A stretch of DNA of 64,000 nt from Verrucomicrobiia bacterium. Its GTDB lineage: Bacteria; Verrucomicrobiota; Verrucomicrobiia; Verrucomicrobiales; DEV007. Shown here one piece after another: positions 6,556 to 62,411 of this stretch; position 1 is the stretch's first letter; every line of letters starts with the position of its first letter. Under the pieces are notes generated by a model. The model did no database searches and had not been told where the DNA came from. It saw only the letters and a program-made list of their open reading frames with translations. The translations under genes and the position numbers were made by a program. The stretch lies in the NCBI GenBank assembly GCA_030427505.1, contig JAUICH010000012.1:1-64000 (forward strand). Reading direction: 5' to 3'.

Positions 6556-6617
6556 TCCGCGGGCTCCCACCGGCAACTACGGCCTTCCCCAGGCGTCCGC
6601 CGCCCCGCCCCTTCTCC

Positions 6618-7916
6618 ATGATCTCCATTGTTACCGCTTATTATAACCGGAAGGACCTGTTCCAGCGCACTCTGGCCAGCCTTGAAGCCTCCGCCGTGAG
6701 CGACTTCGAGGTCATCGCCGTGGATGACGGAAGCGACGATTCCCACCGCCTCGAGGACCTGACGGACCGGTTTCCTTTCCTCCGTGTGCTTCGCCTGGAG
6801 AAGGACAAAAAGTGGTATCACAATCCCTGCATTCCTTTCAATTTCGGCTTCCGAGCCGCCCGCGGCGACCAGATCATTCTCCAGAATCCGGAGTGCCTCC
6901 ACACGGGAGACATCTTAGACCATGTCAGGACCTCCCTGGCCCCTGGGCGCTACCTGACCTTCGGTTGCTACTCCATCGATCAGGAGGACACGGACAGCCT
7001 CGACGGCGGTCCGGCCAGCATCGCGGCGCTGGCCGCCGATGTCTCCACCCGCACCGGCAGACCCATGCGGGATGGCGGTCCAGGGTGGTACAATCATTCC
7101 GTCGAAAACCCCCGGGCCTTCCACTTTTGTTGCGCCATCATGAAGAGCGACCTCGAACGGCTGGGCGGTTTCGACGAACGCTACGGCGGAGGCGTTGCCT
7201 TCGATGACAACGAACTGATTCACCGCATTCGGGTATCGGGCATGGAAGTCCGCTTTGTGGACACTCCATTCGTTTTTCACCAATATCACTACGGACCCGT
7301 CGTGAACATGCTGCCCGAGGCGTTACGTCCCCAGTGGCTTCGAAACCGGACACTGCTGCTCCACTTCACCGAACCCTCAACTCTAGACCGGGCCAATGGG
7401 GCCGATTGGGGAAATCCGGAGAGCGAAGCCACCATCCAGATAAACAAAGCGCTCGACGACCTGCTCCTGCCGGTCGTCGATCCACCGCCGCCCCCTGTCT
7501 CGGTGGAAGAATTCGAAGAAAACCTGCGCCACGCCACCGAATTGCGGGACACCCTCTGGTCGGAAGAAACCGCCACCATTTTCCAGACTTCCGTGGAGCA
7601 GGTCCTCGGCACCATTCAGGACGCCCGGAAATCGTGGCTCGGCCGTGTCGCCTGGCGCAGCCGGTTCGGGCGAAAGCTCGGGAAGATTCTCAAATGGAGT
7701 GACCACGCGAAAAGACGCCAGACCCGGGGGCGCCACCGCGAAGCCATTTCTGTCTGGGTGAAGACCCTCTCCGCCGCCTCCAGCTTAGTTGACGACATCC
7801 GTTCGGACTGGAGGTCATGCCGTCTTATCTCGCCTCGCCAGGCCGGTGACTTTCGCTCCCTGGCATCTTCCATGGAGGTTTGGTGGAAGAAGGCCGAGGA
7901 CGCCACCAAGAATTAG
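6618..7916 (+). CDS. Family 2 glycosyltransferase
   Basis: A 432-residue GT-A fold transferase. The N-terminal MISIVTAYYNR opening and the VDDGSDD motif near residue 37 bind the nucleotide sugar; GFDERYGGG with FDDNELIHRI near residues 185-205 is the C-terminal acceptor/metal region found in GT2 enzymes that make surface glycans. About 160 further residues, rich in charged helices, have no recognised domain. The start at 6618 was chosen because the fold begins there; an upstream TTG would overlap the preceding epimerase. As last gene of the sugar-nucleotide operon it may transfer the L-sugar made by the three enzymes before it, but the acceptor is unknown. Confidence 0.83.
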   Translation: MISIVTAYYNRKDLFQRTLASLEASAVSDFEVIAVDDGSDDSHRLEDLTDRFPFLRVLRLEKDKKWYHNPCIPFNFGFRAARGDQIILQNPECLHTGDILDHVRTSLAPGRYLTFGCYSIDQEDTDSLDGGPASIAALAADVSTRTGRPMRDGGPGWYNHSVENPRAFHFCCAIMKSDLERLGGFDERYGGGVAFDDNELIHRIRVSGMEVRFVDTPFVFHQYHYGPVVNMLPEALRPQWLRNRTLLLHFTEPSTLDRANGADWGNPESEATIQINKALDDLLLPVVDPPPPPVSVEEFEENLRHATELRDTLWSEETATIFQTSVEQVLGTIQDARKSWLGRVAWRSRFGRKLGKILKWSDHAKRRQTRGRHREAISVWVKTLSAASSLVDDIRSDWRSCRLISPRQAGDFRSLASSMEVWWKKAEDATKN

Positions 7917-9463: not shown

Positions 9464-10948
9464 CTAGTTTTTCGCCGATTCGGGTGCTGCTGCCGCGCGA
9501 AATTCTATCTTCGCGGGCACTGCCTCCACCGACAGCGTGGTCACTCGGTCTCCATCCGGCTTTGTCGGCGTTTGAAGGACCTGGCTTGCCACGGACGGGT
9601 CCACGACCAACTCGTATGGCTCCGGTCCGTCCGGCGTTGCTTTCTGTTGATCGATCCATACCTGAGCGCCCGGCTCCAGGAGAAATGTGACCTTCGTTCC
9701 GTGCTCCCCGTAGAGGTCCAACACCTGATCGTTCCGGGGTTGGGGTAGCTGGATCACCGTCCCGGTCTCCGGTCCCAGCTCAAACTTCCCATAGCGGGCA
9801 TTGGCCAGGGGAATCTGGGCTTTGATGGTCTGCCGGATCTCTGTAAACCAACCGTTCAGGGACTGGTAGAACCGCGGACGGTAGAACCCGTCATCATCCG
9901 TCTCGTCTTTCCACCGGTCGCCGATATCGCTGGAGGGCATGCCGTGGCCATAGGCTTCCTTCACTACATGGTAGCGGTCTCCGGGCAGGATTTCGATCTC
10001 CCCTGTCACGGCGCCAAAGGTAAACTTCATTTCCGCCTCCGGACCGGAAACGCTTTTTTCAGCGGTGTACTCTCGCCGCTCCTCATAGGGCGTGGCCAAC
10101 AGCACTCCGGCGATGAGGCCGGCCGTCAAGATTCCGCCCCCGATTAGAACCGGTTTGGGAATCTTCCTTGCCTTCGCCGGAAACAATCCCAAGGGCGTGG
10201 TGGCATTCGTCAAAACTCCGCGGTGCAGACCAAGCAAATAGAACAGGCCCGCTGAAACCAGAAATACCACCCCGGCCGCCCAGACAACGTCACTGGCAAA
10301 GTGTCCGCCCTGCACGACACGGGCAACACCGATCGCGGTTCCGAAGGCGAGTGAGAAAACCAGCACCCCCACGGCCAGGCCGGGACGGCGGCGGCGCAGC
10401 AGAAAATACCCGCCAAAGAAGAAAAAGCCCATGGTGGCATGACCGCAGGGGAAAGATTTCCCCGGACTGCTGTCGTCCCGCCCCAGGATGGTTTCATAGG
10501 CGTAGCGGCCACCGAACTCCGTGACTTCCCGAGGCCGGGGGCGGCCCCAGTTGTCTTTCAGCCAAGTGTTGGTGACCAAGCCCGGTCCCACGATGAGGAT
10601 GGTCACGGCGAAGAGAAAGACCCGGCTCCATTTTGCCAGGCCTTCAAACTTGAACCCCAGGACGAGCCCCACCACGGAGCCCACCGCCACCAGGATGGCG
10701 GGCATGGCGCCCCAGTCATAAAGAAAGCCCCAGGGGAACTCATCCCCGTGCACCCAGCCCTGCTCCGCGACGTAGCAGTGGCTCTGGATGGCCAGGTCCA
10801 GCTCCCCCGTGAACCAGGCCCCGAGGATCACGGTAATCACGGCGGGCAGCACGAAGTCCAGCACCCCCCACAGTGCCCAGCGGCCCTTGGGCGCGGAAGA
10901 AGCGATAGCGGACGGTTCCGTGGCGGACGGGGTTTGAGGGGTGGACAT
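9464..10948 (-). CDS. PAP2-family phosphatase with C-terminal extension
   Basis: An inner-membrane phosphatase of the PAP2/type 2 phosphatidic acid phosphatase superfamily, 494 residues from the start used here (an ATG at 11011 is also possible). The three signature motifs are intact: KDNWGRPRP, SFPCGHATMG and the ARVVQGGHFASD segment with the catalytic histidine. About six spans precede residue 290. The remaining 190 residues are predicted extracytoplasmic and match no domain I know; this doubles the usual PAP2 length. It is divergent from a GT39/GT2/LAB_N set, so a role in dephosphorylating lipid A or an undecaprenyl carrier (LpxE/LpxT-like) is plausible but unproven. Confidence 0.82.
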   Translation of the reverse strand: MSTPQTPSATEPSAIASSAPKGRWALWGVLDFVLPAVITVILGAWFTGELDLAIQSHCYVAEQGWVHGDEFPWGFLYDWGAMPAILVAVGSVVGLVLGFKFEGLAKWSRVFLFAVTILIVGPGLVTNTWLKDNWGRPRPREVTEFGGRYAYETILGRDDSSPGKSFPCGHATMGFFFFGGYFLLRRRRPGLAVGVLVFSLAFGTAIGVARVVQGGHFASDVVWAAGVVFLVSAGLFYLLGLHRGVLTNATTPLGLFPAKARKIPKPVLIGGGILTAGLIAGVLLATPYEERREYTAEKSVSGPEAEMKFTFGAVTGEIEILPGDRYHVVKEAYGHGMPSSDIGDRWKDETDDDGFYRPRFYQSLNGWFTEIRQTIKAQIPLANARYGKFELGPETGTVIQLPQPRNDQVLDLYGEHGTKVTFLLEPGAQVWIDQQKATPDGPEPYELVVDPSVASQVLQTPTKPDGDRVTTLSVEAVPAKIEFRAAAAPESAKN

Positions 10949-11101
10949 GGCGCGCTTTTCCAGGGACGAAGGCACTTTCCGCGTCCGCCATGGCCATTGC
11001 AACCGCTTCATTTCACCCCGATTGGCGCTTTTCTTCGGACCGGGGCGCTTGAAACCCCGGTCACTCCGGTCCAAACTCCGGCTCCCTTGGCCCCATGCTT
11101 C

Positions 11102-12829
11102 ATGACTGACCCGGACGCCACCACCACCGACCGCCTCAGGACTTCAGGCTCCCGGACTCACGGCGCCTGGGTGTGGGGCATTCTGCTGGCGGTGCTGACA
11201 CTGCGGCTGATCTACGCCGCGTTCCAGCCTTTCGACCTGGTGGAGGATGAGTCCTACTACTGGGACTGGGGACGCCAGCTTTCCTGGGGCTACTACAGCA
11301 AGCCCCCGCTCATCGCCTGGACCATGGCCCTGGCCACGGGAATCGGGGGGGACAACGCGGTGGCCATCAAGTTCTGCGCCGCCCTCCTGGCCACGGCCGC
11401 GCTGGGATTCATCTACCTCGCGGGCCGCTCGCTCTATTCGCCGAAAGCGGGCTTCCTGGCGTTGCTGCTGGGCCTGGCCACGCCCGCGCAGGTGGCGCTG
11501 AGCTCCATGATGACCATCGATGTGCTACTGGTCTTTTTCTGGACGGCGGCCCTGTGGCTTTTTTGGCGCTGGGTGGACGGACAGGGCCCGGCAGGACTGA
11601 ATCTCGCGCTCCTGACGGTCTGCACGGGCCTGGGTATCCTGGCGAAGCAGATGATGATGCTCTTTCCCCTGCTAGCGCTCATCTACCTGGCGGTCACCCC
11701 TGACAAACGGGCCCTACTGAAGCGAGGCTCTCTGTGGGTGGCCTTTCTCCTGGCCTTTCTCTTCCTGGCGCCCACGGTGTGGTGGAATGCGCGGCACGAC
11801 TGGATCACCGTGCAGCACACCCAGCACCACTTCGAATCCGCCGAAGCGGAGTCCCTGGGCGTTTACCTGGCGAAAACTCCCCTGCGCGTGCTGGAGTTTT
11901 CCGGCATTCAGATGGCCCTACTGTCTCCGCTGACCTGGATCTTGCTAATCTGCCTGTACGTCGTGGCTCTATGGCAGTTCCGCCGCCTTTCCAGCCGGGG
12001 CCGCTACCTCGCCGTTTTTGGCGCGGTGCCCATCGTGGTCATTTACCTGATGTCGCTGCGTCAGGTCATGCAGCCAAACTGGCCGGCGGTCTACTACCTC
12101 CCCGGATTTCTCTTGCTGGCGGGGTGGTTTTCGGGAGAAGAACCGCTGCCTAAAATGCCCGCCGGGTTGAAGAAGTGGAAGAAACCGGCTCTGGCGGTGG
12201 GGTTCTGCCTGGTGGCCTTCGTCATGATCTATCCTCTGGCCCTGGGGCCGCTCGGCTATGCTGGCGACAAGCATCTGGACCCCCTGCACCGTCAGCGCGG
12301 CTGGAAGGAAGCGGGCACCGCGGTGGGCGAGTTACTAACCCAAGTGCCGAACCCGGAAAAGACCTTTGTGGTGGCGCTGAACCACCGCCTGAATGCCAGT
12401 CAGATGGCGTTCTACCTGCCCCAGCAGCCCCACGTCTACCGCTGGGAACCTACGGGGACCATCCGCTCTCAATATGAGTTGTGGCCTTCCCCCCAGGATA
12501 AAAAAGGCTGGGACGCCTTCATCATTCTCAATACTGACTTTGCCGCCGAAAAACGGGACGCCGAGAAGACCGGCAAGGATGAAAAGCGGGTGCCGCTGAC
12601 TCCGATCCGCCAGGCGTTCAAGAAATTCGAGGAATTCGGAGAAATTTCAGTTGAGATCAATCCGGAAAGGAGCCGTGATTACCGCGTTTTCCTGGGGCAT
12701 GATCTGATAGACTGGCCCCCCTACCATCCGGACTTCGTGGTCCGGCCTGAAGGAGAAGAGAAAGAAGACCACGGCGATAGCGGCCACCAAGCCTCCAACC
12801 CCGGAGACGCGGAACCCGAGCAGGAATGA
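11102..12829 (+). CDS. Family 39 glycosyltransferase (ArnT/PMT-like)
   Basis: A 575-residue polytopic transferase expected to move a sugar from a polyprenyl-phosphate donor to an acceptor on the periplasmic face. The first periplasmic loop carries the family signature [13 protein letters not shown] near residue 45, with its acidic DE pair, followed by [13 protein letters not shown]; about 11 spans follow and a soluble C-terminal domain. The reading frame is open for another 221 codons upstream, but that part is the complement of the PAP2 gene, so the ATG at 11102 just before the first span was chosen. Its stop overlaps the next start by 4 bases (ATGA), coupling it to the GT2 gene that would supply the lipid-linked donor. 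Confidence 0.88.
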
Positions 12830-13623
12830 ACACACCCATGGACCCACAGCACAGCTACCGCTCTACCTTCCCGCTGACAGCCGGTATCCGGCCAGACGCC
12901 GCGGACGATGCCACCCGCCAAGCCATCCCGGAAACGGGCGCCGGAGTTTCGGTGATCGTCCCTTTCTACAACGAAACGGAGTGCGTCCGCTTCGTGCTGG
13001 AAGAAATCCGCAGTGTGCTACCGGAGGCGGAAATCATCGCGATTGACGATGGCAGCTCGGACGATACCTGGACTCAGATCCAGGGCCTGGAAGGCATCAG
13101 CGGTCTTCATTTCACGAAAAACCGGGGCCAAAGCGCGGCGGTCTACGCGGGACTTCGCGCGGCGTCTAATCCTGTGTGCGTGCTGCTGGATGGGGACGGC
13201 CAGAACGATCCCGCCGACATCCCGAAACTGGTGGCCCTGCTGACAGAAGCGGATGTCGTCTGCGGCCGCCGCGCCAAGCGTCAGGATACCTGGAGCCGCC
13301 GCGCCGCTTCGCGTATCGCCAACAAGATTCGCCGCAGCATGCTCAACGACGGCGTGTCGGACACGGGTTGCTCCCTGAAGGCTTTTTCCAAGGACTGCGT
13401 GGAACTCCTCGTGCCCTTCAACGGCCTGCACCGGTTCCTCCCCGCCATTTTCACACAGGCGGGCCTCATCATCAAAGAAGTGGACGTGAACCACCGCTCC
13501 CGGAAGGCCGGCATCTCAAAATACACGAACTGGGAGCGGGCTCTGAGGGGGCTATACGACCTGTTCGGGGTAAGCTGGCTGCTGAAGCGGAAGGTGCTTT
13601 TCCCGCCGATTGAGAAGAAGTAG
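12826..13623 (+). CDS. Family 2 glycosyltransferase, polyprenyl-phosphate sugar synthase type
   Basis: A 265-residue DPM1/ArnC-like enzyme. It should transfer a sugar from a nucleotide donor to undecaprenyl phosphate on the cytoplasmic side. [10 protein letters not shown] near residue 41, the [10 protein letters not shown] motif near 68 and [10 protein letters not shown] near 121 (the DxD-type metal site) are textbook for this group; [11 protein letters not shown] near residue 225 also matches. It lacks the C-terminal membrane spans of ArnC and GtrB, as in soluble DPM1 forms. Translationally coupled to the GT39 transferase and followed by a LAB_N protein, an arrangement known from lipid A-modifying loci. 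Confidence 0.87.
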
Positions 13624-47424: not shown

Positions 47425-48195
47425 CTAAATCTCCACCCTATCCGCCAACGCTGGAAACTCCGCCCGCCAGTCCAGCAGCACCCGCCGCTCCAGCTCAGCC
47501 TCCAAGAGCCCCTCCCCATCCTCCGCGTCCGCCACGATCTTTCCGTGCGGATCCACCACGATGCTTCGGCCTGGATAGGCTAGATTCGGGTCGCTGCCAC
47601 AGCGGTTTACCCCAACCACATAAGCCTGATTCTCGATGGCCCGCGCCCGCAGGAGCGTCACCCAGTGGTCCACCCGCGCTGCCGGCCAACTCGCAATCAC
47701 CACAAAGAGCTCCGCGCCTTGCGCCACTCCCCGGCGGAACAGCTCAGGGAACCGCAGGTCATAGCAGATCAACGGGCACACCTTCCACCCCTGCCAGCCA
47801 AAGAGCACCAACTCCTTGCCCGGCACATAGTGGTCGCTTTCCTTTGTGTAGGTAAAGGTGCGGATCTTCTGGTAACGCGCCAGCCGGTCTCTTTCCGGCC
47901 CATACACCACCAGCTCATTTCGCCCCATGCGCTCCGGCGTCTGCGTCACCAGCCCGCCCAGCACCGCCGCGCCCGACTGTGCCGCCAGGTCCGCCAAAAA
48001 GGCCTCCGTCGCGGAATCCGGTTCCTGCTCACGGATCTTCTCCACATTCATTGAAAACCCTGTCGAAAACATCTCCGGTAACACAATCAGCCCCCCTTCC
48101 GCCGGAAACGCGGGCCGCACCAGTTCCGTCACCCGCGAAAAATTCGCCAGGCGATCTTCCCAAACCGGAGAAAACTGACAGCCAAGAATCCGCAT
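47425..48195 (-). CDS. Carbon-nitrogen hydrolase (omega-amidase/Nit2-like)
   Basis: A 256-residue nitrilase-superfamily amidase. The start at 48195 puts the family beginning MRILGCQFSP at residue 1. The catalytic triad is visible: Glu41 in VLPEMFSTG, Lys110 in YQKIRTF and Cys144 in LICYDLRFPE. The segment FSTGFSMN and the size are those of omega-amidases (Nit2/YafV type) that hydrolyse alpha-ketoglutaramate and other monoamides. No neighbouring gene supports a pathway: it is convergent with the sulfatase and divergent from a lipoprotein gene. Confidence 0.86.
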   Translation of the reverse strand: MRILGCQFSPVWEDRLANFSRVTELVRPAFPAEGGLIVLPEMFSTGFSMNVEKIREQEPDSATEAFLADLAAQSGAAVLGGLVTQTPERMGRNELVVYGPERDRLARYQKIRTFTYTKESDHYVPGKELVLFGWQGWKVCPLICYDLRFPELFRRGVAQGAELFVVIASWPAARVDHWVTLLRARAIENQAYVVGVNRCGSDPNLAYPGRSIVVDPHGKIVADAEDGEGLLEAELERRVLLDWRAEFPALADRVEI

Positions 48196-48380
48196 ACGGA
48201 ACTGAAAGGAAGTAGATTGGTTAAGATAGAGAACTGCGACAGGGAACCGCTGCAAGCATAGCCCCCACGCCCTCCCCGTCCACGGAATTCCCCGCTCTCT
48301 CTGTTGAACTTCACCTCGTTCTGCCCGTGCCGCGTTCCGGCTCCTTGTCTCTCCACCTCACTTCTGCCACACTTCTCCCC

Positions 48381-49370
48381 ATGACCCTTTCCCCCCGCTG
48401 CCGCTTTGCCTTTGCTGCTCTCGTCCGCGCTATCGCCACGGTGACCATCCTTTGCGCCTTGGCCCTGCTGACCTCCTGCGTAGAGATCGCTACTCACTAC
48501 GAACTGAACGCCGACGGCACTGGCCGCGTCACCCTCGTCCAATCCATTCCCCGGAACGGCGTGCCCGAAGACACCGCGCGCAAATTCGGCAAAGAAATCC
48601 TCGGCGCCATGCTCGCCAGCCAGACCGGTGTCGACGCTTGGAGCCAAGCCGAACTCGAACTGACCGATGCCGCCGTCACCGTCCGCGCCACTGGTCTTTT
48701 CCCTGACGTCACCAAACTCGGGCAGCGCACCGATCTCGACTCGCTGGCCTACTCCGCCGCCGCCCTCAAAATGGATACCAATCCCGCGGAGGGCACCGTT
48801 AAGGTCACCCTGCCCAGCGCTTGGGAGACCGTCATCGCCCCCTCCCAAAAACCCTCCGCCTACATGAGCGAAGGCGAACGCTGGACCGAAGTCCTCGTCA
48901 TCAAAGAGCAACTCCCCGCCAGTTGGTCCAAGGTTCGTCCCGACTACGAAGGGTTCTCCAGCACCGTCAGCATCCAGATGGCCGGCGAACTGAGTCAAAC
49001 CGTCAACCTAAACGGCACCAGCGCTCATGAAGCGACTCTCAAAACCACGGTCACCGAACTGGATGCCCTCATGAAGCGAATGAAAAACGACGACCTCTTC
49101 GCCGAACTCTACGCCCGCGCCCAGATGGACCTCCTGAGCGGCGCCGAACTCGCCGCCCTCGCCAAAGCCGTCAACGGCGTCCTCTACGGAAGAGCCTCCG
49201 AAAACTACGCCGTCTTCAACACAGATCCCAACAGCTCCGGCAGCCCCTTGTTCGACTACCCCGCAACCCTCAAAGCCGCCCAGGACAGCCCCGATCCCCT
49301 CGTCTCCGAAGTTCTCGACATGCTACCCGAAGGGGTGAAAGAGAAACTGAATGGCGAAGCCCAGCCGTGA
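48381..49370 (+). CDS. Lipoprotein of unknown function
   Basis: A 329-residue protein with a lipoprotein leader ending LTSC near residue 33. The mature start ATHYELNADGTGRVTLVQ resembles the beginning of lipoproteins with an extracellular DUF of the LppM type, but I cannot assign a family with confidence. The rest is a helix-rich acidic domain without cysteines or motifs. It stands alone on the plus strand. The ATG at 48381 is used; an upstream start would add 18 residues that spoil the leader. Confidence 0.7.
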   Translation: MTLSPRCRFAFAALVRAIATVTILCALALLTSCVEIATHYELNADGTGRVTLVQSIPRNGVPEDTARKFGKEILGAMLASQTGVDAWSQAELELTDAAVTVRATGLFPDVTKLGQRTDLDSLAYSAAALKMDTNPAEGTVKVTLPSAWETVIAPSQKPSAYMSEGERWTEVLVIKEQLPASWSKVRPDYEGFSSTVSIQMAGELSQTVNLNGTSAHEATLKTTVTELDALMKRMKNDDLFAELYARAQMDLLSGAELAALAKAVNGVLYGRASENYAVFNTDPNSSGSPLFDYPATLKAAQDSPDPLVSEVLDMLPEGVKEKLNGEAQP

Positions 49371-49567: not shown

Positions 49568-51538
49568 TCAACAGCTTCCCGGCCGCGCCCCGGTGATGAA
49601 TTTGTCGTGCATGATCTGGAGGCACAGCATGTGGTTCAGCAGCGTGTCCTTCCGCACCAGGGAGACCGGATCTTTGTCCGTCTCATAGTCCTTCAAAAAC
49701 GCCGTCACCCGTCCGGCGTCCAGGATGCCCGCGTCTTCCACCGCTTGTTTGTTCATGAAGGCGTCCGTCAATTCCCTTAACTTGGCTCGCTTGGACTCGT
49801 CTGTATGGGCGGGCGGGGCCATGAAGGCGAATTTTTCGCGCTTGTAGAGCACTTCGGGGAGGACGCCTTTGACCGCTTCGCGGAGGACCCATTTTTCGAT
49901 GTTGCCCTTGATCCTCAGATGCGGCGGCACACGCGTGGCGGCCTCCGCTACATGATGATCCAGGAACGCGGGGCGCGATTCCATGGAGTTCGCCATGTCC
50001 ACCCGGTCGCCGCCCCAGTTCAGAATCTGACCTTCCAGTTGGCACTTGCTCCAGGTGTACTGCGCTTTGTCCAAGGGGTGCCGCCCCTCCAGCGCCTCCG
50101 GCCGGATCTGTGCCGCGATGGCAGCGATGGGGTCGTAGTCCCGGATGGAATGCGCCACGTCATCCGCCAAGAGCGGACGCGCCAGGTCCAGCGTATCCAT
50201 CCATGGCTGAATCCACGAAGGCGTAAACCCGCACAGCGCGTCCCACGCGGGATGATGCCGCACGTTCTCCGCCAGGATGGCCCCCTTGAAAATCTTGTTC
50301 GTCCGCTCCAGGGCCGCCTGGTACTCCTGCCGCTGGGCTTCCGGGACGTGGTCCAGCCCGTGGAGGAACATGTCGCGCTTCAGCGCCGGGTACCCGGCGA
50401 ACAGCTCGTCCGCCCCTTCCCCGGTAATCACGGACTTGTAGTTGCATTCCCGCACCCGGCGGCTCATCAGATTTTTCGCCACGCCCAGGGTGTTGTAAAA
50501 CGTGCGCTCCGCGTGCCACACGGTGTCGATGTAGTTCTGGCCGTAGAGATCCTCCGCCTTCAGGTGGATCATCTCGTGGTCCGCCTCCGTGCTCTTGGCC
50601 ATTTCCAGGGCAATAGCTGACTCGTCATAGTCCGCGTCGTCAAAGCTGATGGTGAAGGCTTTCACCGAACTCTGCATGGCTCCGCTGGCCAAGCCGAGAA
50701 TGCAGCAACTGTCGATTCCTCCAGATAGGTAGCACCCCACCGGTACATCCGCCTCTAGGCGGAAGACGATGGCCTTGATCAGTTCCGTACGAATCCGCTC
50801 GATGTGTTCTTGCGGGTCCGCCTCCAAGTCGTGCTCGGACTCGTGGGGAAAGAGAAAGTCCCAGTAGTAGTGCCGGTTCACCTCCAGGCGGTCGCCACGC
50901 TTGCGGACGATCATCATCTCACCAGGATTCAGCGCTTCGATGCCCTCAAAGGCACTCGTCCCCGGCACAATGGTCTGCATCAACTGGTTCAGCGAAGCCT
51001 CCGGCGACAGACGGCGCGGCACATTCGGGTGCGCCAGCAGCGCCTTCACTTCGGACCCGTAGTAGAGGGTATCATCCGTCAGGTGAAAGAACATGGGGCG
51101 GATGCCGAAGCGGTCCCGCACCAGGATCATCTCCTGCTTGTCCCGGTCATACAGCGCAAAGGCAAACTCCCCGCGCAGTTCCTGGACGAAGTCCGTGCCC
51201 AGCCGCTGGTGCAGGCCCAGGGCGATCTCGCTGTCCGAGTGCGTGCGAAACCGCTCGCCCAGCGCCATCAGGTTCGAGCGGCGGCGTTTGAAATCGTAAA
51301 ACTCCCCATTCACCGTCAGCACCCGCCGTCCGGGCAGGTCATACAGCGGCTGGGCCCCACCCTCCAGGTCGTTGATGGAAAGGCGGGTATGCCCCATGGC
51401 AATGCCCTCCTTCCGCTCCAGGAACTCATTGGTCGAATCCGGCCCGCGGTGCTGGATGGCGCGGAGCATGCACTCCAGGCGGGCGGGGGTTTCGTCGTGA
51501 AGGGGCTTGGCTGAAAAGATGCCGGCGATTCCGCACAT
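49568..51538 (-). CDS. asnB: Asparagine synthase (glutamine-hydrolysing)
   Basis: Converts aspartate to asparagine using glutamine and ATP. 656 residues. The N-terminal class II amidotransferase domain starts with the catalytic Cys2 (MCGIAGIF), followed by the RGPDS and NGEFY segments. The C-terminal synthetase domain has the ATP pyrophosphatase loop SGGIDSCC near residue 268 and GEGADELFAGY near 375. The size and features fit the AsnB type that also occurs in glycan or secondary-metabolite clusters as amidotransferase, but the full ATP and aspartate sites favour a true asparagine synthase. It follows the carbamoyltransferase by 68 bases. Confidence 0.93.
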   Translation of the reverse strand: MCGIAGIFSAKPLHDETPARLECMLRAIQHRGPDSTNEFLERKEGIAMGHTRLSINDLEGGAQPLYDLPGRRVLTVNGEFYDFKRRRSNLMALGERFRTHSDSEIALGLHQRLGTDFVQELRGEFAFALYDRDKQEMILVRDRFGIRPMFFHLTDDTLYYGSEVKALLAHPNVPRRLSPEASLNQLMQTIVPGTSAFEGIEALNPGEMMIVRKRGDRLEVNRHYYWDFLFPHESEHDLEADPQEHIERIRTELIKAIVFRLEADVPVGCYLSGGIDSCCILGLASGAMQSSVKAFTISFDDADYDESAIALEMAKSTEADHEMIHLKAEDLYGQNYIDTVWHAERTFYNTLGVAKNLMSRRVRECNYKSVITGEGADELFAGYPALKRDMFLHGLDHVPEAQRQEYQAALERTNKIFKGAILAENVRHHPAWDALCGFTPSWIQPWMDTLDLARPLLADDVAHSIRDYDPIAAIAAQIRPEALEGRHPLDKAQYTWSKCQLEGQILNWGGDRVDMANSMESRPAFLDHHVAEAATRVPPHLRIKGNIEKWVLREAVKGVLPEVLYKREKFAFMAPPAHTDESKRAKLRELTDAFMNKQAVEDAGILDAGRVTAFLKDYETDKDPVSLVRKDTLLNHMLCLQIMHDKFITGARPGSC

Positions 51539-51606: not shown

Positions 51607-52710
51607 TCAGCCCTCGGTCGGGATCTGCCCGGGTAGACGGTCCAGCCGGTTGAACATACACATCAGCAGTGCCTGGCGGATGAAGACCGCCCCGTGCGCC
51701 TGGGAGAAATACAGATTGTGCGAGGTCTTATCCAGCGAACGGTCCAGCTCATCCAGCCGGGCCAGCGGGTGCAGAATGACAGCGCTTTCCTTCATCTGGC
51801 TCTCCGCGTCCAGCTTGTAGCGGCTGTCCAGCGTCTTGTAGCTGTCCCCCAGAAAGGTAATGGAGTTCATGTAAATGATGTCCAACTGCGGGAGAAACTC
51901 CTGGATGTCATTCGTCACATGGTAGTCGATCCCCGCGTTGATGATGTCTTCCCGCACGTCCGCGCCAAAGGGGTCCGCCATCTCGGAAATCACCGTCACC
52001 TGGCCGATCTGCTCTTTGAAAAGCAGCGCCATCAGTAGAAAGCTTTTCACCGCGCGCATGCTGCCGGGCGTGCCCAGGATGCCCAGGTGAAGCCGCTGCT
52101 TCTTCGCCTGTCCCTTCTTTGGCAGGCGGCTCATCTGGCGGTTCCACTTCAGCAGCGCGTACCAGTCCGCCAGCGCCTGGGTGGGGTGCTCGCCCGTGCC
52201 GTTGCCGGCATTGATCAGCGGTACCCGCAGATTTTGCATGATCTCGTCCACCGAGCGCGTCTCCGTATGCCGCATCACCACCAGGTCACAATACGCGTTA
52301 AACATTTCGCCAATGTCCGCCAGCGACTCGCCCTTAGCGGCGCCCGTTACTTTCCCATCGGGAATGGAAATAATCTTGCCGTCCAAGCGCAGCACCGCGC
52401 TCTCAAAAGACGTCCGCGTCCGGGTGCTGGCTTCAAAGAAGGCCGTGATCACCAGCTTCCCCCCCAGGGGACGATAGGGCGTAATCTCCGTCTTCTCCAG
52501 GACAGCGGCCAGCTTCGCCAGCTCGATGACTTGCTCCCGGGTAAACTGCCGGGCTGTAAGAATGGACTCCCCGGCGAGTTCCCTCAGCACGTTGAGTTTG
52601 ATGGGGTTGTCTTCCACCAAATCGCCCGGTTCCGGGCGAAGCGACTCTGAATCCTGGGGCGGATCCAGAACCTGCTGCATCTGGTTGGGCGGGAGTGGGG
52701 TATCGGTCAT
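51607..52710 (-). CDS. pyrB: Aspartate carbamoyltransferase-like protein
   Basis: A 367-residue carbamoyltransferase. Carbamoyl phosphate motif STRTRTSFE is at 95-103, Lys126 in AAKGESLAD corresponds to the mobile loop lysine, HPTQA is at 175-179 and HPLAR at 314-318. These make the second step of pyrimidine synthesis the likely role. It has a 50-residue N-terminal extension. The canonical RxQxER aspartate loop near residue 285 is replaced by MNSITFLGDS, and the usual HPLPR is HPLAR, so aspartate as acceptor is not proven. Neighbours are asnB downstream and a small membrane protein upstream. Confidence 0.75.
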   Translation of the reverse strand: MTDTPLPPNQMQQVLDPPQDSESLRPEPGDLVEDNPIKLNVLRELAGESILTARQFTREQVIELAKLAAVLEKTEITPYRPLGGKLVITAFFEASTRTRTSFESAVLRLDGKIISIPDGKVTGAAKGESLADIGEMFNAYCDLVVMRHTETRSVDEIMQNLRVPLINAGNGTGEHPTQALADWYALLKWNRQMSRLPKKGQAKKQRLHLGILGTPGSMRAVKSFLLMALLFKEQIGQVTVISEMADPFGADVREDIINAGIDYHVTNDIQEFLPQLDIIYMNSITFLGDSYKTLDSRYKLDAESQMKESAVILHPLARLDELDRSLDKTSHNLYFSQAHGAVFIRQALLMCMFNRLDRLPGQIPTEG

Positions 52711-52729: not shown

Positions 52730-52849
52730 TTACCAAAGTTTCCCGCTGAGGCAGTCCTTCACGAACAACACCACCAACAGCACCACCCCAAGGGTGGTGA
52801 GAACCAACGCGCCGGTCACCAACACGGCAAAGATAGATTCTGAAAACAT
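52730..52849 (-). CDS. 39-residue membrane protein, likely symporter small accessory subunit
   Basis: A small open frame with ATG at 52849 and TAA at 52730, between the symporter and the carbamoyltransferase. It encodes one long hydrophobic helix: MFSESIFAVLVTGALV, then a leucine/valine stretch, ending KDCLSGKLW on the positive side. Small single-span partners of about 30-60 residues accompany several SSS carriers (for example MetS with MetP, and PanF/YhdT-type pairs). Gaps of 55 and 19 bases to the neighbours on the same strand support co-transcription. Too short for homology by eye; no strong ribosome site is seen. Confidence 0.65.
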   Translation of the reverse strand: MFSESIFAVLVTGALVLTTLGVVLLVVLFVKDCLSGKLW

Positions 52850-52904
52850 GGATACGCTTGGTTGAGAATGAATTGACGCAGGTTTCGGCCCAAGGGCCCT
52901 GCAT

Positions 52905-54344
52905 TCAGTGATTTTGATCCTCGCTAGGCAGGCGGTTCCAGTCGAACGGCTCTTCGGAACGAAGCTTCGTCCCAATCAGCACCACGGCCATCGACACCAC
53001 GGCGCCCACCAGAGCGCCGGAGAACCAGCCTATCTGAAAATAGGCCACCACGCCAAGCACACTGCCTGACAGCATGGCATAGAACGCCGCCTCGCGGCTG
53101 GTCCGTTTCCAGTACAGTCCCAGGATGATGGGCCAGATGGTGCTCGCCACCAGCCCTCCAGACAGGAACAGCACCAGCAGGATGTCCTGAGTACTCACCG
53201 CGCACAGCATCCACGTCACCGCGCCCAGGCCCAGCACGGAAAACAGGGCCGCCTTCCGCACCGTGGCATCATTCGCGCGGGGGTTGAACAGCCGCCGGTA
53301 GATATCCTCCGCCATCAAATCGGATGTGGCTGCCAGCAGGCTGTCCACGCTGGAAGCCAGCGAACAAAACACCACGATGAAAACCAGCACCGCGCCCGCC
53401 TGACCCAGCACATTGCCCGCCACCACCGGTCCCGCCGTGTTCGGGTCCGTCACGTTGATCCCCAGCGGTCCCGCTGACAACGCGATGAACCCGGCGGCAA
53501 TCGGGATGGGCAGCCACAAGAACCCGGCGAGAGCAAAGGCCTTCGGCGCCACGTCTTTCCGCAGCGCGTAGGCGCGGCTCCACCACACATTATTGTGAAA
53601 CACTTCTCCCAAGCCAAAGAAGAGATTGTTAAAGAGCGAAAGCAGCGCCGGCGCCAGCATGACCTTCATCAACATCGGCGAGTGTGTCTCCACATGCTGG
53701 TAGGAATCCGCCAGCCCGCCTTTATCGATCACGAGCCAGCCGACGAGCGCCACCCCTATCAGGATAATGACACTCTGCACGAAATCCGTGCCGATCACCG
53801 CGTACAGCCCGCCGAACAAGGTGTAGGCCACGCAGACAAAGAGAATCACGCTCATCCCCCATACATAGGGAATACCCGCCAAGTCATGCAGAAGAATGCC
53901 GCCCGCAATGCCCATGCTTACCAGCCAAGCCATGGAGTAAATAATCGTGATGACCAGGAAAAGAATCCACGCCTTCCGCCCGTAACGGATCCTGACAAAG
54001 TCACCACTGGTGAAGCCTTTGGGAAGGATCTGGTGAATCCGTTTCGTCACCGGCGCGAACAGAAAAAGGCCGAAACTGGCCGTGCAGTAGGCCACCATGC
54101 CCCATATCCCCGCCTTCAAGGCAAAGGCCGGCGCCAGCATTACCGTGTTGGAAGTTACCCACGTGGCCATGGCCGTGGCCGCGCCCAGCGCCATGCCCAC
54201 GTTCCGGCCCGCCAGCAGGTACCCTTCCAGGTTGCTGGCCTTGCGCCCTAACAAAATTCCGATAACGATCCACGCCGTTCCAAAGATGGCCAGGCAAATC
54301 CAGCCCGTGACGGGACTTAATACTGAGACGGTGTCGGTTTCCAT
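52905..54344 (-). CDS. Sodium:solute symporter (SSS family)
   Basis: A 479-residue carrier with about 13 spans and no leader. It opens with a periplasmic-face helix and LLGRKASNLEGYLLAGRNVG (a family beginning), the segment AYTLFGGLYAVIGTDFVQS near residue 180 and a CSLASSVDSLLAATSDL loop near 330 that corresponds to the second sodium site. It lacks the long hydrophilic tail of urea or proline types, so a substrate cannot be named. It begins 3 bases after the stop of an FN3-like membrane protein and is followed by a 39-residue membrane protein: all three are probably one transport unit. Confidence 0.9.
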   Translation of the reverse strand: METDTVSVLSPVTGWICLAIFGTAWIVIGILLGRKASNLEGYLLAGRNVGMALGAATAMATWVTSNTVMLAPAFALKAGIWGMVAYCTASFGLFLFAPVTKRIHQILPKGFTSGDFVRIRYGRKAWILFLVITIIYSMAWLVSMGIAGGILLHDLAGIPYVWGMSVILFVCVAYTLFGGLYAVIGTDFVQSVIILIGVALVGWLVIDKGGLADSYQHVETHSPMLMKVMLAPALLSLFNNLFFGLGEVFHNNVWWSRAYALRKDVAPKAFALAGFLWLPIPIAAGFIALSAGPLGINVTDPNTAGPVVAGNVLGQAGAVLVFIVVFCSLASSVDSLLAATSDLMAEDIYRRLFNPRANDATVRKAALFSVLGLGAVTWMLCAVSTQDILLVLFLSGGLVASTIWPIILGLYWKRTSREAAFYAMLSGSVLGVVAYFQIGWFSGALVGAVVSMAVVLIGTKLRSEEPFDWNRLPSEDQNH

Positions 54345-54347
54345 GGC

Positions 54348-55268
54348 TTAGCCGGCGTTTTCTTTCACTGCGTCTGGTACTTCCCGGTTTGCCCGTGCCG
54401 CGCCCAGGATTACCGCGATCACCGTGGCTACAAAGACCACCGCGCCCAGCCCCATCAACGTCCACACCTTCCACCACGCCACGTAGTTGACTTTCACCCA
54501 CAGCGGCTTCGACCATGGCGTGACAGTGCCTCCTTCAAACACGGCCCTCACCCGGATGAAATGGTCCCCTTCCTCCAGGCCGGAGAGAAACGACTCCGTA
54601 TCCAGCCCGGGCTGATAGGTAACTGGCTCGGAGAACTTCCGGTCGCGCGCCCGTTCCAGTTCAAACCGCTCCAAGGTCCGGTCTTCCGTATCAGGCTCAT
54701 AGCTCCACTCCAGAGGCACGATGCCTTCCTCGTTCAAATAGTCTTCCTTGTCCCCTTCCAGACTGGATGCCGGCTCGACGAATACTGGCGCGAAGCTCAC
54801 TTCCACGGTCAAAGTCTCCGACCACGGCCCCGGCTGGTCTTCTTTTTGCTGTCCTTCTGTCAGAATGGCCCTGACGCGAAAGTGATGTACGCCCTCCTTT
54901 AGACCCGTAACCTCGAAAGCCGTCTCCTGATCCGGCTCAAAGGTGTCCGGATTGGTGAATTTGGGATTGTCCGCCCTTTCCAGCTCGAAACGCTGCAACG
55001 TTTCTTTTTCACCCGACGCTTCAAATTTCCATTCTAATGATAAGACCCCCTCACCAATCAAGCGCGCATCTTTCCCCGGCTGGGTGAAAACAGGGCTTTT
55101 TTGCGTCACACCCGACGAAAAGGCCACGAATAGCCATGAAAGCCACACACAAAACGCGACTAATGAGACAGGCGGGGAGTACAGGGGACCGATTCCTCCG
55201 ATGGCGTGGGCCACTGGCTTTTGTTGAATCACTACTCTATCAATTATACGGCGACGTTTTTTAGGCAA
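54348..55268 (-). CDS. FN3-like repeat membrane protein next to symporter
   Basis: A 306-residue protein with an N-terminal signal-anchor (about residues 33-52) and a C-terminal span (about 272-292). In between are two related beta-rich units of about 90 residues with matching strands: RFELERADNPKF / RFELERARDRKF and HHFRVRAI / HFIRVRAV, consistent with fibronectin type III-like domains. No ATG precedes the anchor; TTG at 55268 or GTG at 55232 or 55214 are the possible starts. It ends 3 bases before the symporter start, so is likely a partner. Function unknown. Confidence 0.75.
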   Translation of the reverse strand: MPKKRRRIIDRVVIQQKPVAHAIGGIGPLYSPPVSLVAFCVWLSWLFVAFSSGVTQKSPVFTQPGKDARLIGEGVLSLEWKFEASGEKETLQRFELERADNPKFTNPDTFEPDQETAFEVTGLKEGVHHFRVRAILTEGQQKEDQPGPWSETLTVEVSFAPVFVEPASSLEGDKEDYLNEEGIVPLEWSYEPDTEDRTLERFELERARDRKFSEPVTYQPGLDTESFLSGLEEGDHFIRVRAVFEGGTVTPWSKPLWVKVNYVAWWKVWTLMGLGAVVFVATVIAVILGAARANREVPDAVKENAG

Positions 55269-55291: not shown

Positions 55292-55332
55292 AACCCCGAT
55301 CAGTCAAGCAGGCATTGCGATTTACCGGGGTT
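55292..55332. promoter_or_regulatory. Dyad between FN3-like gene and MarR gene
   Basis: AACCCCG (55292-55298) and CGGGGTT (55326-55332) are perfect complements 27 bases apart in the 91-base divergent spacer. The position suits a site read by the MarR-type regulator that begins at 55360, but the arm spacing is wide for one dimer and a hairpin is equally possible. Confidence 0.3.
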
Positions 55333-55359: not shown

Positions 55360-55914
55360 GTGAGCTCACCCAAAAATACGGTCCCTTCCATCCCCACTGA
55401 TCGTTACGACCTGCGAATCCTGCGCGCCATGCGCCGGATCATTCGTGCGGCAGACATTTTTTCCCATCGCCTGGCCAGCCAGCATGGGGTTACCGTGCCC
55501 CAATTGATCTGCCTGACCCGCATCGTTGAGGCGGATGGCATTACGATCAAAAAGCTTTCCAATGAGGTTTTCCTGAGCCCCAGCACCGTGGTCGGCATTA
55601 TCGACCGCTTGGAGACCCGGAAACTCGTCCAACGGCAGCGCTCCGGCTCCGACCGGCGTCTGGTTCACCTTCTGCCCACGGATCTCGGGAAACAGATGGC
55701 CGCTCAGTGCCCCTCCCCGCTTCAGGACGCCCTGGCCACCGCGCTCCAATCCTTGCCCGATGACGATCAGCAGTCCGTCGCCATGGCGCTCGAGCGTCTC
55801 GTCTCCCTCATGGAGATCGATAAAGTGGACGCGGCCCCTATCCTGGAAACCCTGGACAACCTCACCGGCACCGCGGCCGATGTGGAAGACCACACCTTGG
55901 GCGGCGTACTTTAG
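55360..55914 (+). CDS. MarR-family transcriptional regulator
   Basis: A 184-residue winged-helix repressor with GTG start. Residues 17-150 hold the MarR fold: VTVPQLICLTRI, the recognition helix in LSNEVFLSPSTVVGIIDRLETRKLV and the wing RQRSGSDRRLVHL. MarR proteins bind DNA as dimers and usually respond to small molecules such as phenolics. It is divergent from the FN3-like/symporter operon and may control it. Its stop codon TAG lies within the left arm of the inverted-repeat element beginning at 55912; the C-terminal sequence may thus be cut or set by that element. Confidence 0.88.
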   Translation: MSSPKNTVPSIPTDRYDLRILRAMRRIIRAADIFSHRLASQHGVTVPQLICLTRIVEADGITIKKLSNEVFLSPSTVVGIIDRLETRKLVQRQRSGSDRRLVHLLPTDLGKQMAAQCPSPLQDALATALQSLPDDDQQSVAMALERLVSLMEIDKVDAAPILETLDNLTGTAADVEDHTLGGVL

Positions 55915-57237: not shown

Positions 57238-58329
57238 CTACTCTCCTGGAAAGGGATCGGCGGCCAGCCGCAACTGGATCTCCTCCTCCGTCCACGGTCC
57301 GCCCGCCAGGCTTTGCCGCACTGGCGAGACCATCGTGCAGGCAGCCAGCGCCAAAGTCACGCCACCCAGGAACAGCACGGCCACCCGCCGCCATCCCCGC
57401 CGCCGCGAACGGCCTTCCAGAATCTCCCGCACCCGGTCCTCCAGGCCACCCGTCGCCCCTAACATCGAAGGTTGTAACAAAAGACCTCGTCTCCTCCGTG
57501 AAGCCCTCGCGTGCCCCGGCCGCGCCGCCTCCGTCGCGATCGCCAGCAGGTGCCGCGCATAGTCCCCCGGCCTGCCGCCGGTGCTCTGCAAGACCCAGTC
57601 GTCCACCAGGTACTCCCGGTCCACCGTCAGCCGCCGGGACAGCCACCAGGCGAAGGGGTTAAACCAATAGCAAATGCACAACACGCGCGTAAACAGTTGC
57701 CACCACAGGTCCCGCCGCGCCAGGTGCGCCACCTCGTGGCAGATCACGTAACGCCAGCGATCCTCCGGCCAGTCCGAGGCGGACTCCGGCAGCAGGATCG
57801 CCGGGCGGAACCAGCCCATCACCACCGGACGGCTTACATCCCTGGAAAGAAACACCCTGACAGAACCCCGAAACGCGTCTCGCCCTCCGGTACCTTTTCG
57901 GCCCTCCGCCAGTGCCAGGGTTTCCCGAACTGCATTCAAAAAGCGTCCCCGCGCTACCGGCCGCGCCTTCTTTACCAGTTGGTTCGCCGCCCGGGACAGA
58001 CAGATCAGTTGCCCCATCCCCAGACCCACTCCGGCCAACCACAGCAAGGCGAGCGCCATTCCCCAACCCGGTCCGGCAATCGCTCCCGCGTTGACGGTTC
58101 CCGCGCCAGGCATGGATCCTAACAAAGGCATCACCACTTCCCACCGTGGCGCCCAGGCGGTAGCCACGGGCAGCAGCGTCAGCCCGGCCAGACCGCACAG
58201 CACCACCGCCATCCGCAGGGGTGCGGACGAAGTCCTCCGCGCGAGAGCATACAGAAGCGCCACCGCGGCGCCAAACCCCAGGCTCCGCCAGCCCACCTCC
58301 ATCCAGAAGCCCTCGCCAAGACCGCTCAT
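57238..58329 (-). CDS. M56-family (BlaR1-like) membrane metallopeptidase
   Basis: A 363-residue protein with four membrane spans and a gluzincin site HEVAH at 198-202, with the third ligand glutamate probably in the DREYLVDDW segment near 235. This is the protease half of BlaR1/MecR1. The extracellular penicillin-binding sensor domain of those proteins is missing, so the signal is not read as beta-lactam. The start overlaps the end of the BlaI-type repressor by 4 bases (ATGA), a coupling typical of such pairs. Activation should lead to repressor removal. Confidence 0.86.
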   Translation of the reverse strand: MSGLGEGFWMEVGWRSLGFGAAVALLYALARRTSSAPLRMAVVLCGLAGLTLLPVATAWAPRWEVVMPLLGSMPGAGTVNAGAIAGPGWGMALALLWLAGVGLGMGQLICLSRAANQLVKKARPVARGRFLNAVRETLALAEGRKGTGGRDAFRGSVRVFLSRDVSRPVVMGWFRPAILLPESASDWPEDRWRYVICHEVAHLARRDLWWQLFTRVLCICYWFNPFAWWLSRRLTVDREYLVDDWVLQSTGGRPGDYARHLLAIATEAARPGHARASRRRRGLLLQPSMLGATGGLEDRVREILEGRSRRRGWRRVAVLFLGGVTLALAACTMVSPVRQSLAGGPWTEEEIQLRLAADPFPGE

Positions 58330-58751
58330 GATCTGCCTTTCCGTTTCTTAGCAGGAGCGTCAGCGACATCGCCTTCTTCATGCTCCGCGATAAGCTGCCG
58401 GATGCGGTCAATCTGTTCGGAGGACAGCTTCTGGTCGTCCGGGTCCAAAAGAGAAGCCACCAGCTTCTCTGGCGAGCCCTCGAAAAATGTCTTCAGCAGA
58501 TTCTTCAGCGCCAGCCGCTTCGCCCGCGGCTGCGCCATCGTGGGCTGGTAGATGTATTTACGTGACACACGCTGGTGTTTGACAAAGCCCTTGTCCTCCA
58601 GAATCGCCAGCATGGCGCGCACCGCCGAGTAACTGGGCGGATCCGGAATCGACTCCTGCACCTCTTTCGCGGAGGCATTTCCCAGCCGGAAGAGCGCCTC
58701 CATGATCTGGCGTTCCCGGCGGGACAACTGGCTGGCTTCAAGCGCTTCCAC
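58326..58751 (-). CDS. BlaI/MecI/CopY-family repressor
   Basis: A 141-residue winged-helix repressor: SRRERQIMEALFRLGNASAKEVQESIP near residue 9, then the recognition helix in YSAVRAMLAILEDKGFVKHQRVSRKYIYQP and a dimer-forming helical tail. Together with the overlapping M56 protease it forms a two-part sensor found widely in this phylum, often without any lactamase. The targets probably include its own operon and perhaps the divergent lipoprotein. No consensus BlaI operator (TACA-TGTA) is seen in the spacer. Confidence 0.9.
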   Translation of the reverse strand: MEALEASQLSRRERQIMEALFRLGNASAKEVQESIPDPPSYSAVRAMLAILEDKGFVKHQRVSRKYIYQPTMAQPRAKRLALKNLLKTFFEGSPEKLVASLLDPDDQKLSSEQIDRIRQLIAEHEEGDVADAPAKKRKGRS

Positions 58752-59840: not shown

Positions 59841-62411
59841 TCACCTCGCCGCGTCCACCCGCGCGCTGCGGCCCATGGCCAGCTTGCCGAAGTTGTCGGA
59901 TATCGTCTCTTTCACCCGCACCACGGAAATGGGCTTGGTCATGTAGTCATCCATGCCCGCCTCCAGGCAGGACTCCCGCACGCCGGCCAGGGCATGTCCC
60001 GTCATGGCAATGATCAAAGGCTGGCGCGGCAGATGAAAATTGCTGCGAATGCGCTTGGTGGCTTCTATTCCGCCCATCACGGGCATCTGAAGATCCATGA
60101 ACACCACGTCTATTTCGCCCGAATTCACAATCTCCACCCCTTCCTGGCCATTTTGGGCGATTTGGACGGACTTGTAGCCTAGTTTCTTCAGGATCATGGC
60201 GGCAATGCGCTGGTTCGTCAGCACATCTTCCACCAACAGCACCCGGGCCGGAAAGTCCTCCGCGAAGAGCCGGTTGCTCGGGGCTTCCGTCTGAAGGATC
60301 GAGTTCAACCTCGCCTCATCCGTCAGACCGCTTCGCCGCAGAACAATCTCCGCCAAAGATGTCGCCAGCTTCAATTCGCTCAACGGCTTATACGTGAACC
60401 GGATGGGCGCCGCCTGGTTGTCCCTGAGTTCCTCGGGCTTTTCCTCTCCCACCGCCAACAGTCCGATCCAGGACAGGCCGTGCTGCTCCATCGTCCGGCA
60501 CAGCAAACCCACCATTTCCCGGTCCTGAGAACGCGGATCTATCAGCACCACGTCCGGAGCCCAGCCGGTCAATTGCGCGATGAACCCGGACTCGATTGAG
60601 GGCACAACATGCACCGCCGCGCTCCAAATCTGGCAGTAGTGAGAGATCAGGCTCCCCAGGGATTCGTTCCGGCACACCACTACGACCCGCCGGCCATTCA
60701 GAGGAGCGAGCAGTTCCGGATTCTCCGCCGGCTTCTTGGCGCCCTGCTGGGGCACTTCGCGGAAGCTCAGTTCGAAGAAAAAGTTCGATCCCCGCCCCTG
60801 CTCGCTCTCCACCATGAGGTCCCCGCCCATCAGGCGGCAGAGCTGGCGGCTGATGGCCAGTCCCAGCCCGGTTCCGCCATACTGCCGGGTCGTGGAGGCA
60901 TCCGCCTGAGTAAACGCTTCGAAGATCCGCTCCTTATTCTCCGGTGAAATCCCAATGCCGGTGTCCTGGACGGAAAATTTCACCACCGGCAGCTCGCCCC
61001 GGTCCACATTCCGGCTGCCGCTCAATACCCTTACCACGATCTCTCCCGCCTCCGTGAACTTCAGGGCGTTCCCTATCAGGTTTACCAGGATCTGTTTGAT
61101 GCGTTCGTAGTCCCCAAAGATGACGTCCGGCACGGCTTTATCGATGAAATAGATCAATTCGATATTTTTCTCCGTTGCCGTGTAAACAAACAGTTCAATC
61201 GTATCTTCAATGAGTTGCGGTAGATTGACTGGAGCATTTTCAATCTCCATCTTCGCGGATTCAATCTTGGAAAAGTCCAGCACGTCATTGATCAAATGGA
61301 CCAGCGACTCCCCGCTGCTCCGCATGATGTAGACCAGTTCCTTCTGTTCATCGGTCAGCTTGGTCTCCAGGAGCAAGTGAGTCGTGCCGATGATGCCGTT
61401 CATCGGGGTGCGGATTTCATGGCTGATGTTGGCCAGGAAATCGGACTTCGCCTGTTGGGCGTCTTCCGCCTGTTTCTTCGCCACCTGCATCTCTTGGTAG
61501 CTGACCCGCACCCGATTGTAGGTCTGCTCCAGCCCAGAGGTCATCTGGTTGAACGACCGCTCGAGTTTGACGAACTCCCCGCCTCCACTGCCCAAGTTCA
61601 GCCGCAAGTCGTAGCGCCCCTGTCCTACCTGGGCCATTTCCGTCGTGAGCTTGAGTAGCCGCTTGGCCCAGTCTCGCCCCACCCAAAAGACCACCAGAAA
61701 GGCAGGCGCCACACCACACAGGCCGGCCAGGAAGATGCCCCCACCCAGGTTCCAGAAATTGTAGGGAGCCGCGGCGGTAGTGCCCTCCATCTGTAGGAGA
61801 CCCACCACCTCGTTCTCAGCATTGCGGATCGGCGCGGCCAGCTGGATCGAGTAGTCCCGATTCCAGGAATTCAAAAAAGCGTTCCCAAAAATGGCCGTCA
61901 GGCGCTCCAGGGATAGAGGGTCGTCCGGCACCCCGCCAACGTCAAAGCCCGTGGAGTTCGGGGTCCCGTTCATCGCCATGGCCAGGTAGAGCGCCATGGG
62001 AACCAACTCCAGCCCCTCCGCATACCCAGGTCTCGCCAGGATTTCGGGCTCAGCCAGCACGACAATCCCATCCTCCGGTTCGTGAACCACCCCAAGCACG
62101 CGAATCAAGGGCGTGAAGGGTTGCAGCGCGTCGGAGGCACTCAGTTGCGCGACCTGCTGATTCAACTGGCGAACCGCCTCCTCATCGACCGGTTCGGTCC
62201 CGAGCGTTGCCGCCACCCGCGATACCACGGAGGCATCCAGAGACGCCGCTGCCGCGCTGACCGTCGACTCCAGCCGCTCCGACACGGCGGTCAACTCATG
62301 CTCCCGAAGGCGGAAATAGACGAAGTACGCACTGACACAGACGCCCATTATCAAGGCAGCCGCGGTCATGATAAGCAATCTCAGCGATATCGAGAAACTT
62401 GGGAGCGCCAT
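59841..62411 (-). CDS. Hybrid sensor histidine kinase
   Basis: An 856-residue kinase. First span at about residues 9-32, an extracytoplasmic sensor region (33-220, helical then beta-rich, no recognised fold), second span 221-245, HAMP 246-300, coiled segment, HisKA with phospho-acceptor His331 in [10 protein letters not shown], HATPase (about 440-565 with DTGIGI and [12 protein letters not shown]), a degenerate receiver-like domain (about 575-690, with VLIDPRSQ but without the usual lysine/threonine set) and a complete receiver with Asp773 in [10 protein letters not shown]. It resembles BarA/GacS-type kinases without the final Hpt. No response regulator gene is adjacent, so the partner lies elsewhere. 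Confidence 0.93.

Follow-up and report, generated by a model that had tools for sequence, protein, structure and literature searches.

A conserved FN3, sodium symporter and mini-protein unit in a likely osmolyte gene set of Verrucomicrobiota and other bacteria

Why should a sodium:solute symporter (SSS) family carrier be encoded with an FN3-like membrane protein and a protein of 39 residues, and what might such a unit transport? This question is raised by a locus in the 64,000-nucleotide stretch of verrucomicrobial DNA analysed here (the window). The four genes named by the original prediction were all located. The minus strand carries the FN3-like gene (54348..55268, 306 amino acids from a TTG start, the true start codon being uncertain), the SSS carrier gene (52905..54344, 479 amino acids) and the gene for the single-span mini-protein (52730..52849), which ends in a conserved (R/K)D....LW motif. 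A MarR-family regulator gene (55360..55914, Pfam MarR E 8.8e-13) diverges from them on the plus strand. The FN3 stop codon lies exactly three bases (54345-54347) before the SSS ATG, as the original prediction had it. The minus-strand order continues with the gene for a carbamoyltransferase (ATC, 51607..52710), which appears to form a subfamily distinct from canonical ATCase, and the gene for an AsnB-type glutamine-dependent amidotransferase (49568..51538, 656 amino acids); the gaps after the mini-protein gene's upstream neighbour, after the mini-protein gene itself and after the carbamoyltransferase gene are 55, 19 and 68 bases. This order and these short gaps make it very likely that the operon extends past the first three genes into the carbamoyltransferase and AsnB.

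Beyond AsnB lie a 347-amino-acid ORF with a lipoprotein-like start (48327-49370, plus strand) and a CN-hydrolase gene (47425-48255, minus strand) whose product resembles the PRK10438 amidohydrolase below that model's cut-off. The CN-hydrolase was set aside as part of a breakdown path, given the intervening opposite-strand gene. On the other side of the locus, inspection by eye identified an M56/BlaR-like membrane peptidase (57238-58751, minus strand) together with a BlaI-like repressor gene that overlaps the start of the peptidase gene, and a large hybrid sensor histidine kinase with a receiver domain (59841-62411, minus strand).

We examined how far this arrangement is conserved. A direct pattern search for related loci with the FN3 protein as query returned no matches because the protein is too divergent, and the carrier was used as query instead. 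This gave 80 loci with a related SSS carrier, from Verrucomicrobiota, Bacteroidota, Alpha-, Beta- and Gammaproteobacteria, Planctomycetota and others, with Chitinophaga japonensis and a Novosphingobium strain among the hosts. By family HMM, an FN3-family gene lies upstream of the SSS gene in 79 of the 80, and the remaining locus (L076) has a P1-family peptidase gene in its place. The mini-protein, placed after the symporter by the original prediction, occupies the same position in 74 loci. Of the enzyme genes, that for the carbamoyltransferase occurs in 73 loci and that for AsnB in 71, usually in the order SSS-mini-ATC-AsnB and in one direction, and many loci also encode an N-carbamoyl-amino-acid hydrolase (HyuC, 38/80) and an isochorismatase-type amidase (ISO, 30/80). 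These tallies are lower bounds because several loci end at contig edges. In at least four phyla both small proteins recur in this position, and their ORFs are therefore not chance.

Surveys for the FN3 family itself gave a similar picture. Among near relatives the gene occurs in 8 of 57, each time beside an SSS gene, and a survey of 388 genomes of the phylum found eight full-length members, seven of them beside SSS; weak matches in very large proteins were discarded as generic FN3 domains. The sole exception (L149, 3365-6112) has an AsnB-like gene, FN3 and a P1-family peptidase at the end of a contig that carries no SSS. In L076 (1-750) a peptidase closely resembling this one stands immediately before SSS and the mini-protein, and the two loci are probably halves of one variant arrangement, in the order AsnB-like gene, FN3, P1-family peptidase, SSS, mini-protein. 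By eye this peptidase is DmpA-like. No carbamoyltransferase was seen on either contig, both of which are short. Fifteen of 274 gammaproteobacterial genomes carry FN3, which adjoins SSS directly in three and mostly (12/15) adjoins HyuC of a HyuC-amidase pair; in the loci that were fully read, this pair is followed by SSS-mini-ATC-AsnB. The co-occurrence of FN3 and SSS genes in other genomes, on which the original prediction staked its case, is thus borne out in the carrier loci, the near relatives and the phylum survey, and every gammaproteobacterial FN3 gene lies beside SSS or HyuC-amidase genes.

The strongest evidence that FN3, SSS and the mini-protein form one transport unit comes from three genomes in which the enzymes lie elsewhere. 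Ectothiorhodospira haloalkaliphila and Thioalkalivibrio denitrificans have the enzymes in an operon of their own, MarR-HyuC-ISO-ATC-AsnB (L102, L103), while FN3-SSS-mini stay together (L064, L073), and in a third genome (L078) the three genes are together with no ATC nearby, the ATC being on another contig. The proposal that the three genes act as one unit is well supported by this conserved gene order, although the larger operon with carbamoyltransferase and amidotransferase had been missed.

The link to the MarR regulator is looser. In the window the FN3 and MarR starts are 91 bases apart on opposite strands, and an imperfect inverted repeat of 14 nt, AACCCCGATCAGTC / GATTTACCGGGGTT, lies between the genes (55292..55332) as a candidate regulator site. 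A MarR homologue was found in 11 of the 80 loci. The linkage on which regulation of the set had been suggested is real but patchy, and MarR may control the genes where it is present.

We next considered the FN3-like protein. A family HMM trained on 74 single-domain homologues detected the FN3 domain twice in the window protein, in agreement with the two beta-domain repeats first described: domain 1 (54786..55112, 61.5 bits) and domain 2 (54483..54782, 111.2 bits), all features of the protein being on the minus strand. Pfam fn3 scored below threshold (E 0.0025, 18.4 bits against a gathering score of 25). Among the family members examined, only the window protein has two domains; domain 2 is the counterpart of the single domain of the homologues, and domain 1 is therefore an extra copy. 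In an AlphaFold2 model of the window protein domain 2 was modelled well and the N-terminal domain was unfolded, because the homologues have one domain only, and the single-domain homologue L009 was therefore used for the fold search. Its model (43 sequences, mean pLDDT 88.7) is an FN3 beta sandwich with one C-terminal helix, and Foldseek against the PDB placed FN3 domains and chains that contain them at the top (E 1e-5, TM by target up to 0.75). Structure prediction thus shows an FN3 fold for the family. The C-terminal transmembrane helix, with conserved glycines, spans residues 265-295 in the model of the window protein (54393..54479). The N-terminal hydrophobic stretch (55113..55172, residues 33-52), judged by sequence inspection and by homologue N-termini that to the eye mostly resemble signal peptides, is probably a signal peptide or anchor. 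The protein therefore probably has one span; the extracytoplasmic FN3 domain of the original prediction stands, but its placement between two spans probably does not.

Conservation within the family falls on the FN3 core, a Y-x-G-x-D...SGL loop and the glycines of the membrane helix (G132 in 74/74 and G146 in 69/74, L009 numbering). It had been suggested that the FN3 protein could hand substrate to the carrier on its outer side, as an extracytoplasmic domain tethered beside a carrier could do, and the conserved loop could bind something. However, no binding site or pocket was evident, the membrane-helix positions are conserved to the same degree as the domain, and FN3 domains usually bind proteins or serve structural roles; we regard presentation as distinctly unlikely. 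A role in sensing the osmotic state or the state of the cell wall and in regulating the carrier accordingly, in place of a structural one, would suit the osmotic context of the cluster (see below) and the short cytoplasmic tail, yet the protein has no signalling domain and the tail varies in length and is weakly conserved in the alignment, making this reading rather unlikely too. A structural subunit is the likelier role than substrate presentation.

The carrier itself is covered in full by Pfam SSF (PF00474, E 5.8e-31, residues 42-427). Its TM8 sequence LASSVDS aligns with LMSSLTS of SGLT1 and keeps the serine pair that we take to be sodium-site residues in SSS carriers. No NCBIfam model assigned a substrate at its cut-off. 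Among solved proteins, DUR3 urea carriers are nearest to it (E 1.8e-25), and since these carry urea, the transported solute might be a ureido compound of smaller size. The mini-protein matched no Pfam or NCBIfam model.

What the unit might carry is best approached through the linked enzymes. In 88 aligned members the carbamoyltransferase keeps STRT, K84, R105, HPTQ and R167 invariant or nearly so; by analogy with E. coli ATCase we take the first four to form the carbamoyl-phosphate site and R167 to be the alpha-carboxylate arginine. The positions of ATCase R229 and Q231, presumably the pair that binds the aspartate side chain, are replaced in 87 of the 88 by S/A/T and A/T/V within an N-[SA]-I-A-[FWY]-L-G-D-like motif, whereas the pyrB genes compared keep both. 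With the aspartate side-chain site lost, the cluster enzyme is, as far as sequence can tell, not an aspartate carbamoyltransferase. Glutamine is our best guess for the acceptor, and only a guess because loss of the aspartate site also fits other neutral amino acids. The AsnB protein has an MCGIAG start with the N-terminal Cys and both GATase and Asn_synthase domains. Generic models would name the two enzymes aspartate carbamoyltransferase (TIGR00670, 173 bits, below cut-off) and asparagine synthase (TIGR01536, 386 bits, above cut-off), and the carrier might on that basis be placed in general amino-acid or pyrimidine metabolism. The R229/Q231 replacements speak against this, as does a separate canonical pyrB near other pyrimidine genes in the same genome (L104), and a pyrimidine role leaves it unexplained why the genes are linked with those for SSS, FN3, the carbamoylase and the amidase. 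We consider such an ordinary pair of enzymes very improbable. At L104, on contig C19 of this genome, HyuC and isochorismatase-type genes are only a few kilobases away from pyrB and further genes of pyrimidine type (L104 positions 5443-7555 and 10181-12986).

The hydrolases allow another reading. HyuC is an M20-family protein that matches carbamoylase/allantoate amidohydrolase models, and ISO is closest to biuret amidohydrolase. In the host genome copies of HyuC and ISO (61% identical) lie side by side at C19:79535-81542, so that genes for all four steps appear to be present in this organism. At one other locus (L026, 7603-10500) a 965-amino-acid ORF between carbamoyltransferase and AsnB grouped with HyuC in an all-against-all comparison, below the score used for HyuC in the tally. 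Such hydrolases, in or near many clusters, together with a carrier closest to urea carriers, would fit nitrogen scavenging, in which SSS imports external ureido compounds (N-carbamoyl amino acids, hydantoin or allantoin products) and the amidase and carbamoylase degrade them. Scavenging, however, needs neither an ATP-dependent amidotransferase nor a carbamoyltransferase, and yet these two are steadier members of the clusters (71-73 of 80 loci) than the hydrolases; osmotic neighbour genes also count against it, and we think it unlikely.

These neighbours include glycine/sarcosine and sarcosine/dimethylglycine methyltransferases (the former an N-methyltransferase; L059, L060), OtsA and OtsB (L068), TrkH (L037, L064), BCCT (L030, L037) and MscS (L103). 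Betaine, trehalose, K+ and mechanosensitive-channel genes of this kind occur in only about five independent lineages; fewer would probably be expected by chance, on a rough count from general knowledge. An osmolyte role for the locus is likely, and the product is most likely N-carbamoyl-glutamine amide (CGA). CGA was reportedly recognised in 1991 as a compatible solute. It was discovered in Ectothiorhodospira, in E. marismortui (PMC1224877), and a review of phototroph genomes lists it as a candidate solute, in passages that name no genes (PMC7824335). No CGA gene was reported in the literature we searched on CGA genes and on salt stress with the genes found here. All ten genomes of the E. haloalkaliphila genus carry the ATC, 60-65% identical to a cluster copy from gammaproteobacteria and distinct from pyrB and argF, the ten possibly including E. 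marismortui. In one of these genomes (L113, L114) the carbamoyltransferase is split in two frames, by decay or sequencing error.

We therefore favour, as moderately probable, a reading of the locus as an osmolyte gene set in which CGA is made, taken up and broken down, with FN3 and the mini-protein as partners of the carrier. The carbamoyltransferase, with glutamine as acceptor, and the AsnB-type amidotransferase would make CGA. The hydrolase pair, at C19 in the host and within the cluster elsewhere, would strip the amide and the carbamoyl group. The SSS carrier would use sodium to take up the solute or to recover what has leaked, inward transport being the presumed direction. The FN3 protein, with a single C-terminal helix as its anchor and its domain outside the membrane, and the single-span mini-protein would be membrane partners of the carrier; both may contact it as structural subunits and stabilise or gate it through packing between membrane helices, and not by presenting substrate. 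Genes for making, importing and degrading CGA would open the pathway to testing. The wider claim, that this is the first genetic basis of CGA, present also in Verrucomicrobiota, Bacteroidota, Pseudomonadota and Planctomycetota and accompanied by a three-part sodium carrier whose FN3 and mini-proteins are new families, seems to us evenly balanced. If true, an osmolyte known from one genus would be widespread, annotation as aspartate carbamoyltransferase and asparagine synthase would need correcting, and two new small membrane-protein families would be associated with a single type of carrier, which would help in understanding why SSS carriers take single-span partners.

Carriers with small membrane partners have precedents. 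Monocarboxylate transporters have basigin, an Ig-like, single-span, extracellular partner that acts as chaperone or subunit. The FN3-SSS pair would likewise join a carrier to a single-span partner with an extracellular domain, but the carrier superfamily differs, its domain is FN3 and not Ig, and the origins are unrelated. Small membrane proteins are also encoded beside sodium symporters in ActP-YjcH, VC_2705-type SSS carriers with a small subunit, and MetP-MetS, whereas the present mini-protein has no Pfam or NCBIfam assignment. SGLT1 and SGLT2 with MAP17 combine an SSS-family carrier with a small single-span partner, although this is a eukaryotic sugar carrier with no FN3 domain, and the comparison is one of arrangement and not of sequence (PMC10803289, PMC9616851). 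Among solved proteins DUR3 urea symporters come closest to the carrier in sequence and make a ureido-like cargo plausible, but the similarity is distant and their chains are longer (704-773 residues). CGA of Ectothiorhodospira, the product predicted here, is known as a compound, in contrast to the genes proposed for it. The nearest biosynthetic parallel is the gene set for N-acetylglutaminylglutamine amide (NAGGN), where the amino and carboxyl ends of glutamine are also masked and an AsnB-type amidotransferase (AsnO) is also used. The AsnO model (TIGR03104) gave the cluster AsnB proteins about 266.6-312 bits, below its cut-off of 570.1, and the NAGGN set relies on acetyl and dipeptide chemistry, whereas the present one has a carbamoyltransferase and an SSS carrier with FN3 and mini-protein.
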